A stretch of DNA of 64,000 nucleotides, from NCBI GenBank assembly GCA_011390155.1, contig JAABSW010000001.1, forward strand, positions 184,953 through 248,952, written 5' to 3'. The stretch is from Clostridiaceae bacterium (GTDB taxonomy: Bacteria > Bacillota > Clostridia > Peptostreptococcales > Tindalliaceae). Both the position numbers and the translations under genes were made by a program. The notes under the pieces are model-generated. The model was given only the letters and a program-made list of their open reading frames with translations, was not told where the DNA came from and did no database searches. Shown here piece after piece: positions 32,649 to 42,579 of this stretch (its first letter is position 1; each line of letters starts with the position of its first letter).

Positions 32649-32703
32649 TTGGTCATCGCCTTGACGACTTGTTTGATAAGGGTTATAATTAGTTTTGTTA
32701 AAT

Positions 32704-32789
32704 AAAGGGGAGCTGAGTTAAATCGGCTGAGAGGGAGCGTATGGTTCCGACCCATAACCTGATCTGGATAATGCCAGCGGAGGGATCAA
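32704..32789 (+). promoter_or_regulatory. TPP riboswitch (THI element)
   Basis: The leader contains GGGGAGC, CGGCTGAGAGGG, GACCC and ACCTGATCTGGATAATGCC with AGCGGAGGGA in the known order and spacing of thiamine pyrophosphate riboswitches. It precedes the ThiY-like lipoprotein gene, and a terminator follows at once. Confidence 0.96.
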
Positions 32790-32799
32790 TAGAACTGAT

Positions 32800-32837
32800 G
32801 AACCTTGATCCTGTTGTTTGGGATGAGGTTTTTTTTG
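32800..32837 (+). terminator. Riboswitch-controlled terminator
   Basis: Stem AACCTTGATCC (32801-32811) with GGGATGAGGTT (about 32820-32830) and a T8 tract. The segment TTGATCC can alternatively pair with GGATCAA at 32783-32789 in the riboswitch P1 region, giving a simple TPP off-switch. Confidence 0.85.
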
Positions 32838-40127: not shown

Positions 40128-40868
40128 GTGATCCTAGGGGTTATACTTATAGCTGCTTCACTAGGTGGAGCCGTGTTAACTGGTGTTGGATTTGAGTGGT
40201 TAGCACTTTTATTAGTTGGTTATGTTGTCACTGCAACTTTCTATACACAGAAGTTATTTAGTCGATATCAGAATAAAACATTTTTGAGAACATTGTTTTT
40301 AACGCTGCTTTTATCGATAGTCATTTTTATTGGTTCATTTATGATGGTGCAAGTTTTAATTGCATCAGCAGGTAGGTACAACCAGCATTATACATCTAAT
40401 TACCTGCTGGTACCTGGGGCTGGTATCATTAGAAAGGAGCCTTCCTTTACCCTTGCGGGGAGATTGGATACAGCCATTCACTATCTGAACAATAATCCTG
40501 AAACAAAAGTCATTGTATCAGGTGGGTTATCGGATGGACAGTTGGCTTCAGAGGCACAGGTAATGGCTTGGTATTTGGAAAAATATAAAATTAGTTCTGA
40601 CCGAATCATTTTGGAGGAAAATGCTTCCAATACATTGGAAAATATATTGTTTTCAAAAAAACATGTGGAAAACCTTTATGAAACATCATTAAATGAAATA
40701 ATCATAATAACCAGCGATTATCATCTGCTTCGTTCTCAAATGATCGCCAGGCGAACGGGCATGAGGGCATCTGGCATTAAGTCCACTTCTCCTCCTGACT
40801 TGTATCAACAATATGCAGTCAGAGAATATTTTGCCATTTTCAAATCGATGTTGTTGGATTGGCCATAA
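40128..40868 (+). CDS. YdcF/SanA family (DUF218) membrane protein
   Basis: This 246-residue protein has two or three N-terminal hydrophobic segments (to about 90) and an extracellular or cytoplasmic DUF218 domain: LLVPGAGI, VIVSGGLSDGQLASEAQVM, ILEENASNTLENI and TSDYHLLRSQMIARRTG. Relatives influence envelope integrity, and the activity is unknown. The start is a GTG 9 nt after GGATGGTG. It is convergent with the T-box-controlled small gene, sharing the hairpin at 40872. Confidence 0.86.
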   Translation: MILGVILIAASLGGAVLTGVGFEWLALLLVGYVVTATFYTQKLFSRYQNKTFLRTLFLTLLLSIVIFIGSFMMVQVLIASAGRYNQHYTSNYLLVPGAGIIRKEPSFTLAGRLDTAIHYLNNNPETKVIVSGGLSDGQLASEAQVMAWYLEKYKISSDRIILEENASNTLENILFSKKHVENLYETSLNEIIIITSDYHLLRSQMIARRTGMRASGIKSTSPPDLYQQYAVREYFAIFKSMLLDWP

Positions 40869-40898
40869 AAAAACGACAAGGCAACCATCCCTGTCGTT
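40867..40898 (-). terminator. Terminator of the T-box-controlled small gene
   Basis: Arms AACGACA (40872-40878) and TGTCGTT (40892-40898) extended by GG/CC. On the minus strand a T7 tract follows the stem (A-run at 40867-40873), so it ends the small gene's transcript and can also slow the plus-strand ydcF transcript. Confidence 0.8.
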
Positions 40899-40922
40899 GT
40901 TAGTATAAAATGAATGTATGAA

Positions 40923-41099
40923 TCATTCCCAGTCAGACTTTAGTGAGCCGGCTCCGAAAAAATTCATGGTGCAAGGTCCGTTTTGGATTGCATACTGGTC
41001 TACTGAACCTGTTTGGCGAACATGTTTTTGTTGGGCATGAGAAGCAGTATGTTGTTTACTTACCTTAGATTTTGTTGGTGTTGAGGTAGCTCTTGTCAT
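40923..41099 (-). CDS. 58-residue protein of unknown function, controlled by a T-box leader
   Basis: On the minus strand ATG 41097-41099 lies 6 nt after AGGAGGAAT. It opens a 58-codon frame to TGA at 40923-40925. The N-terminal half is basic and Gln/His/Ser/Thr-rich (MTRATSTPTKSKV), followed by SVDQYAIQNGPCTMNFFGAG and ending SLKSDWE; one Cys. There is no signal peptide or membrane helix. It is the only gene between a complete T-box riboswitch and a terminator, and it is not an aminoacyl-tRNA synthetase, biosynthetic enzyme or transporter. I recognise no family. Size, strong ribosome binding site and isolated transcript make it likely real. Confidence 0.75.
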   Translation of the reverse strand: MTRATSTPTKSKVSKQHTASHAQQKHVRQTGSVDQYAIQNGPCTMNFFGAGSLKSDWE

Positions 41100-41195
41100 G
41101 ATAATTCCTCCTTAATAATAGTAGAATAATGGCAATACACAGATAATACAACTGGCGCTAAACGTTGACCTCCTTTCAAGGTTTGCACAAATATC

Positions 41196-41440
41196 AAAAA
41201 TCCGTCCTTTGTCAGACAAAGGACGGATTAACTAATTCCGCGGTACCACCTTCATTGTTTGCTTTGCAAACCTCTCATGGGAAACTTCCCGGCTATATCG
41301 TAACCACCGGTTTCTGCTACTATGTTTCACAGAAACTGCTCTAGAGTGAGATCCTAATGTTCCAGTACCGGTTCGCAGCACCACCGACTCTCTTAACCTG
41401 GAGAACATTTGGAATTCTCTATCAACGCATTAATAATATA
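41196..41440 (-). promoter_or_regulatory. T-box riboswitch leader (probably Leu-tRNA specific)
   Basis: On the minus strand the leader carries a stem I with specifier loop, an AG bulge and distal loop of the AGAGAG/GGTGCTGCGAACC type, and then AAGGTGGTACCGCGG (41238-41252), the T-box motif. A strong terminator ATCCGTCCTTTGTC/GACAAAGGACGGAT follows (41197-41230). The base after TGG is T, which pairs with a tRNA discriminator A. The specifier loop reads ATCTCACTCT; CTC followed by A is the best codon (Leu), with ATC (Ile) a lesser option and TCT (Ser) disfavoured by the discriminator. Confidence 0.93.
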
Positions 41441-41449
41441 TTAGAATTG

Positions 41450-41478
41450 ATTATAACAGCGTATAGGCATCACGTCAA
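41450..41478 (-). promoter_or_regulatory. Consensus promoter of the T-box unit
   Basis: On the minus strand: TTGACG (41473-41478), 17-nt spacer, TATAAT (41450-41455), one mismatch from the sigma-A consensus. Transcription would begin near 41443 and enter the T-box. Confidence 0.85.
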
Positions 41479-41575
41479 TAGAAAATTCTAAAAAAAATAA
41501 AAGATTTTAAATATTAAAAATTTGTAGTAAAAGCAAGTCAAAAAACGTGCATGTCGTTGGTTTATTAAATATGAA

Positions 41576-41604: not shown

Positions 41605-41655
41605 GATGTCATTGCATCATTGTGTTAAGAATTTATATCACTGGAGATGAGAAGT

Positions 41656-42579
41656 ATGCAAACAAAGGCTGATAAGAATGTTATACAGACAAAAGTGGGG
41701 GTATATTATGCATTGGCAGCTTTCACGTTATGGGGTTTTCTTCCGTTATACTGGAAATTGCTAAACGCTTTCACTGCAGGAGAAATTTTGGCCAACCGGA
41801 TGATCTGGTCAGCAGTATTTGTTTTCATATTGCTACTGAAACGAGGGCAAGTAGACGAAGTAAAACAAATCTTTAAACAGCCTAAAAAATTGAGACTGGT
41901 AATGTTATCCGCTGTTATTATATCTACTAATTGGTTTATTTATATTTGGGCAGTTAATTCGAATCATGTGTTGGAAACCAGCATGGGGTACTACATCAAT
42001 CCTTTGATTGTCATCTTGATGGGAACATTGATATTAAAAGAAAAATTGAACAGGCTGGAAATCATTGCTATATTATTTGCTGCCACCGGTGTCTTGATTA
42101 TGACTTTACAATATGGCCGTGTACCCTGGGTATCTTTAGCTTTGGCCGTCAGTTTTGCATCGTATGGATTATGCAAAAAAGTGGTTCAGATAGACTCATT
42201 GGTGGCACTAGGAGTGGAAACATTTTTATTATCACCCTTTGCCCTACTATATTTAGTCGTAACCCGAACAAGCTTTTTAAGTACAGCTGCAACAGTTGCA
42301 CCAGCGACAGTACTGTTACTGACCATGGCAGGCTTTTTTACAGCCTTACCGCTGCTTTGGTTTGCCCAGGCAGCTAAACGTGTGACTTTGGCACTGTTAG
42401 GATTTTCCCAGTACCTGTCGCCTACCATTACATTGCTACTGGGAATCTTTCTTTTTCGTGAGCCATTTACTACCACTCACATAATTAGCTTTGGTTGTAT
42501 ATGGATCGGTCTTATGATCTTTTCATATGTACAAACAATAAAATTGAAGGCATCACGCAAAACACATAAAATAGTATAG
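41656..42579 (+). CDS. rarD: RarD family EamA transporter
   Basis: This 307-residue protein has ten hydrophobic segments and the RarD hallmarks GVYYALAAFTLWGFLPLYWK and SNWFIYIWAVNSNHVLETS-like start of the second helix pair (reads TNWFIYIWAVNSNH). Family members are suspected drug/metabolite exporters. The ATG at 41656 follows GGAGATGAG better than the in-frame ATG 41647. Its strong promoter diverges from the T-box promoter (98 bp between the -35 boxes). Confidence 0.88.
   Translation: MQTKADKNVIQTKVGVYYALAAFTLWGFLPLYWKLLNAFTAGEILANRMIWSAVFVFILLLKRGQVDEVKQIFKQPKKLRLVMLSAVIISTNWFIYIWAVNSNHVLETSMGYYINPLIVILMGTLILKEKLNRLEIIAILFAATGVLIMTLQYGRVPWVSLALAVSFASYGLCKKVVQIDSLVALGVETFLLSPFALLYLVVTRTSFLSTAATVAPATVLLLTMAGFFTALPLLWFAQAAKRVTLALLGFSQYLSPTITLLLGIFLFREPFTTTHIISFGCIWIGLMIFSYVQTIKLKASRKTHKIV

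Follow-up and report, generated by a model that had tools for sequence, protein, structure and literature searches.

A T-box unit with an orphan small protein as its only product, probably under double branched-chain amino-acid starvation control

Genes under T-box control nearly always encode enzymes, synthetases or transporters, and to our knowledge anti-TRAP is the one well-studied case in which a T-box governs the making of a small regulatory protein. In Bacillus subtilis, this zinc-binding small protein (AT, encoded by yczA/rtpA) is induced via a tryptophan T-box and disables TRAP (PMC11255114). A second point of reference is ilv-leu of B. subtilis, where a branched-chain T-box and CodY act on one promoter (PMC5794164). 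Wels et al. 2008 counted 54 genes of unknown function behind T-boxes; the names in their Table 2 stand mostly for transport, biosynthesis or tRNA ligase functions, and in the main text we found no mention of the protein family described below (PMC2494555).

Here, we analysed a 64,000-nucleotide stretch of DNA from a member of the Tindalliaceae (the window) and describe a unit whose product, as our best guess, is a trans-acting effector that resembles anti-TRAP in logic and is unrelated to it in sequence. As with anti-TRAP, for which trans regulation is established, the output of a T-box for an uncharged tRNA is a small protein. Unlike the tryptophan T-box of anti-TRAP, all 26 T-boxes found before members of the family carry CUC or AUC specifiers, and while anti-TRAP is a zinc-binding trimer, the protein of the window contains a single cysteine and shows no evident metal site, nor is a fold predicted for it. 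As for membership of the anti-TRAP family, no Pfam or NCBIfam match reached the cut-off in any member scanned. Like B. subtilis ilv-leu, the unit has a branched-chain tRNA T-box, and CodY may act on its promoter too, as the promoters of the family suggest when taken as a set, but its sole product is a small protein rather than biosynthesis enzymes. A preceding sequence-only reading of this DNA had proposed that a dedicated small protein induced by amino-acid starvation would be new: the protein family does appear to be new and has no name in the libraries searched, whereas the principle has its precedent in anti-TRAP (PMC11255114).

Architecture of the unit

The unit occupies positions 41478-40872 of the window, on the minus strand like all of its parts. 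Promoter and Rfam T-box, the latter with a terminator of its own, are followed there by a single gene of 58 codons and a closing terminator. Its sigma-70-type promoter, TTGACG-17-TATAAT (41450-41478), agrees with 11/12 consensus positions and has a TG before the -10 box. The T-box leader, from stem I to the T-box core, is found at full length at 41216-41434 (Rfam RF00230, 108.4 bits with a gathering threshold of 93, E 5e-23). The specifier codon CTC (Leu; 41348-41350) was assigned by position, being followed by an A and then by the 3' strand of the stem I base, and the core AAGGTGGTACCGCGG (41238-41252), read from the sequence, contains UGGU and so expects discriminator A; CUC specifier and UGGU were thus both read by position in the window. 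Downstream lie the intrinsic terminator of the T-box (41199-41229), with a 14-pair hairpin and a T-tract (-20.8 kcal/mol, z -6.0), a Shine-Dalgarno sequence AAGGAGG read from the sequence (41107-41113), the gene for the 58-residue protein (40923-41099) and the intrinsic terminator closing the unit (40872-40898; 10-pair hairpin and T-tract, z -3.5). The complete T-box unit with a 58-residue protein as its sole gene, as it had first been described, was therefore confirmed where it had been placed.

Both adjoining genes are on the opposite strand, a ydcF-like gene (named by eye) at 40128-40868 being convergent and rarD at 41647-42579 divergent. The unit consequently holds no classical T-box target, and none of the usual synthetase, biosynthesis or transport genes lies within it. 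The reported absence of such targets was borne out, and no missing synthetase or biosynthesis gene, which had been raised as a possible real target, explains the unit. Elsewhere in the window, a TPP riboswitch (32696-32802, plus strand, 60.8 bits) precedes genes at about 33 kb.

A conserved element was seen between the T-box terminator and the gene by alignment of the six Tindalliaceae and inspection of their reading frames (TTATCTGTGTATT, 41134-41146). This element, TTnTCTGTnTATT, is kept in all six, reads x-Ser-Val-Tyr and varies at third codon positions only. An AGGAGG resembling a Shine-Dalgarno sequence stands upstream of it in several Tindalliaceae, and the frames running through it end at inconsistent places. 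In the members with an isoleucine T-box, it was not seen by eye. It could be a short leader peptide or an RNA element; anti-TRAP has a short leader peptide.

The genome of the window contains 14 T-boxes in 2.7 Mb, and we estimate the chance of a random gene start lying as close behind a T-box as the genes of the family described below at about 0.2%. The others precede synthetases, ilvN-ilvC, ilvB and proC (genes named by eye). Two T-boxes stand in tandem before ilvN-ilvC (L003 and L013; G000:C32:39397-39834), the second with the specifier CUC (Leu) and the first apparently with AUC (Ile). The T-box of the window scores best against this second ilvN-ilvC T-box, percent identities being similar for several T-boxes. 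The T-box itself is ordinary; the novelty appears to lie in the family of proteins and in the double control that it is probably under.

A family of small proteins behind T-boxes

The first homologues, in five genomes (G002-G006), came from a single-sequence search: Anoxynatronum buryatiense has one with 47% identity (E 1e-12), and the others are in four genomes of the sister genus, two of them named Tindallia. Profiles A1, A2 and A3 were grown from them and then searched against other families of the same order, which raised the family to 32 loci in 31 genomes of that order, the window included; the homologues in relatives that had been named as a check thus exist. For the weaker homologues, the ground for acceptance was in most cases the motif described below inside a short frame. 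An alcohol dehydrogenase (L034), a 241-aa protein (L053/L119) and L037, L054, L055, L056, L074 and L117 were removed as chance homologues. Class-wide and phylum-wide samples gave no further match bearing the motif, two weak phylum matches being left out, and a plasmid search gave no match. By this comparison the family appears confined to the order at the sensitivity used. Pfam, NCBIfam, PHROGs and PDB sequences yielded no credible profile match for the members scanned; matches to PDB antibody heavy chains were rejected, as they probably reflect the chance string YWGQG.

The proteins are 43-71 residues long (32 members). Their N-terminal half varies in both length and sequence, and conservation is concentrated at the C-terminus, in the motif N[FY][FW]GxG and the acidic and aromatic residues after it. 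Within the motif, N is present in all 32 members, F/Y in 31, F/W in 31 and both G in 32, with any residue between them; positions +9/+10 after it are mostly acidic and +11 is mostly L/W/F/Y. The window protein has NFFGAG, and the codons of its conserved C-terminal motif (CTMNFFGAGSLKSDW) lie at 40929-40973. In close pairs dN/dS was 0.08-0.56, and it was below 1 in every pair with a finite estimate; one distant pair was saturated, so that only a pN/pS, of 0.61, was available. The last 22 codons showed low pN/pS in most pairs. We conclude from these comparisons that the 58-codon gene is a real coding gene under purifying selection.

In two AlphaFold2 models the protein had no fold (pLDDT 57-58), the block bearing the motif being the most confident part of both, and the N-terminal half is probably disordered throughout the family. 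The RNA-binding, ribosome-binding or toxic role that had been suggested from the basic N-terminal half found no support, since that half is not conserved and conservation resides in the last ~22 residues. Leucine makes up 2.0% of residues in the leucine-controlled group versus 6.9% in the other members (p 1e-4, kinship ignored), and isoleucine about 3% in both. A low-leucine composition fits use under starvation; the contrast is suggestive only because the six leucine-controlled members are related.

The homologue search used no T-box criterion, and an Rfam T-box was nonetheless present upstream of 26/32 family loci (93-131 bits), which answers the earlier proposal to check for such leaders in front of the homologues. 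Nearly all lie close to the gene. In one case (L125; G016:C1:824000-827500) the distance is about 750 bases; the interval contains a weak RF01405 match, and a 16S rRNA gene lies downstream. In one genome (G066, L072:1755-1836, minus strand), an Rfam 'Clostridiales-2' RNA (82 bits) sits between the T-box and the small gene and resembles a palindromic repeat insertion. By the positional rule GAA...XXXA (PMC5794164), the specifier is CUC (Leu) in all six Tindalliaceae and AUC (Ile) in the other 20. The leucine signal that had been proposed for the window therefore holds there and in the six Tindalliaceae, but not as the general signal of the family. Members with no T-box match came from G019, G047, G055, G057, G032 and G493; among these, the promoter stood directly before the gene in 5/5 upstream regions examined, several with a strong CodY-box-like site.

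CodY-box-like sites and links to branched-chain metabolism

CodY is a sensor of branched-chain amino acids as well as of GTP; the CodY box reads AATTTTCWGAAAATT (PMC5314169 and others). We scanned the 60 bases before the -35 box of 26 family promoters with this consensus and with permuted palindromes. The mean best match of the CodY consensus was 12.0 of 15, ranking 1 of 105 permuted palindromes, the next reaching 10.8. A match of 13 or more was found in 9/26 promoters, whereas no permutation reached this in more than 2. Some members lacking a T-box were among the best (14/15 in G057 and G032, 13/15 in G019). It is therefore likely that the promoters, as a set, have a CodY-box-like site ahead of the -35 box. 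The corresponding stretch in the window (41484-41498, minus strand) is weak, with 11/15 matches and a p of about 0.4 when taken alone, significance belonging to the family set only.

The genome of the window encodes CodY (G000:C115, E 1e-63). CodY was present in 31/31 family-positive genomes, one of them with a fragment, versus 34/44 negative genomes, a co-occurrence that says little because CodY is found in most genomes of the order. The gene for ilvC was found in 28/31 positive versus 9/20 negative genomes (Fisher p 8e-4) and, within a single taxonomic family (f3), in 10/11 positive versus 1/5 negative genomes, this within-family comparison being the one phylogenetic correction in the co-occurrence tests. 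The small gene is present and ilvC was not found in G097, G477 and G049, the last two of which are fragmented assemblies. G066 has two copies of the small gene, the first in divergent orientation next to an ilvC-citramalate synthase operon and the second behind ilvN-ilvB. Across the family loci, we detected no recurrent neighbour that would name a partner. In L092, L093, L058, L059, L095, L097 and L098, which belong to several other families of the order, metA (homoserine O-acyltransferase) and an O-acetylhomoserine sulfhydrylase gene lie near the small gene, which may be synteny only.

Proposed role and alternatives

The unit, the family, the selection on its coding frame, the T-box association and the CodY box of the set are supported by comparison; from these we infer a chain of events that runs through tRNA response and CodY binding to action in trans and docking. 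Uncharged tRNA-Leu (tRNA-Ile outside the Tindalliaceae) would bind the T-box leader and let transcription pass the terminator. In many relatives, a likely CodY box would allow CodY to shut the promoter as long as GTP and the branched-chain amino acids are in good supply. Once induced, the protein would act in trans, since its gene is alone in the unit, is closed off by a terminator and has no neighbour that recurs. Its C-terminal motif would dock on a partner in branched-chain amino-acid metabolism or regulation, with the N-terminal half serving as a disordered carrier; docking through the motif is proposed because the remainder of the protein varies and the models show no fold. Candidate partners are acetolactate synthase, isopropylmalate or citramalate synthase, and CodY. 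This regulator and the branched-chain enzymes suggest themselves because the family tracks ilvC and appears to answer to the same signals. We give a probability of roughly 60% to this reading, a stand-alone small protein made at branched-chain amino-acid shortage under T-box and CodY control and acting in trans by docking of its C-terminal motif. An extension to the whole order is offered more tentatively: the family may consist of starvation effectors convergent with anti-TRAP, small disordered proteins which, with one docking motif each, let the charging state of tRNA-Ile or tRNA-Leu directly govern a branched-chain enzyme or regulator (as an allosteric peptide acting on acetolactate synthase or as an 'anti-CodY').

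A narrower proposal, that the protein is a dedicated CodY antagonist, strikes us as unlikely. It would be the branched-chain counterpart of anti-TRAP and would disable CodY when tRNA is uncharged and CodY is still ligand-bound. The logic of such a circuit is the same as that of anti-TRAP (PMC11255114), every positive genome encodes CodY, and the CodY-box-like sites at the gene's own promoters would close a feedback loop. However, CodY is widespread in the order and occurs in most negative genomes too, and ilvC tracks the family as well as CodY or better.

The protein might instead be a peptide precursor from which the C-terminus is cut out, perhaps with modification (of AgrD type or another ribosomal peptide), and released at branched-chain shortage. 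The precursor-like small size and the Cys or Ser before the conserved C-terminal motif in many members are consistent with this, and AgrB genes lie about 2-5 kb from the gene in G068, G478, G091, G019 and G066. A partnership with AgrB was nevertheless rejected, as AgrB has no match in the window's genome and seven other positive genomes (8/31 absent). A lasso-type peptide (G1 to D/E at 7-8) was likewise dropped, with too little sequence past the ring and no processing genes seen. Moreover, neither a modifying enzyme nor an exporter is found repeatedly next to the gene, the ring residue lacks conservation (10/32 members have Cys at motif -3) and no amphipathic N-terminal helix is apparent, which leaves a precursor improbable.

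A conserved C-terminus next to the stop codon and a variable N-terminal half are typical of arrest peptides, and the family shows both. Ribosome stalling in the conserved C-terminus would then control a downstream gene in cis. We regard this as very unlikely: the frame in the window has a terminator behind it, the gene that comes next in the Tindalliaceae is in convergent orientation, several members extend up to 21 residues past the motif, and no downstream gene is common to the family loci. A decaying gene or chance frame behind a T-box left from an ilv or leu operon, to which the similarity of the window T-box to that of ilvN-ilvC and the short, low-complexity protein could point, was already disfavoured and is scarcely credible with a motif kept over 31 genomes, dN/dS below 1 in all finite pairs and promoter, ribosome site and terminator all retained.

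If the favoured reading of a trans-acting starvation protein is true, the family would be a second, unrelated and widespread case next to anti-TRAP, which would mean that bacteria repeatedly make a protein signal out of tRNA charging. The motif, being short, conserved and probably under double control, would offer a precise handle for finding the partner. For the related bacteria that carry it, the small gene is probably an unstudied part of the response to amino-acid shortage.
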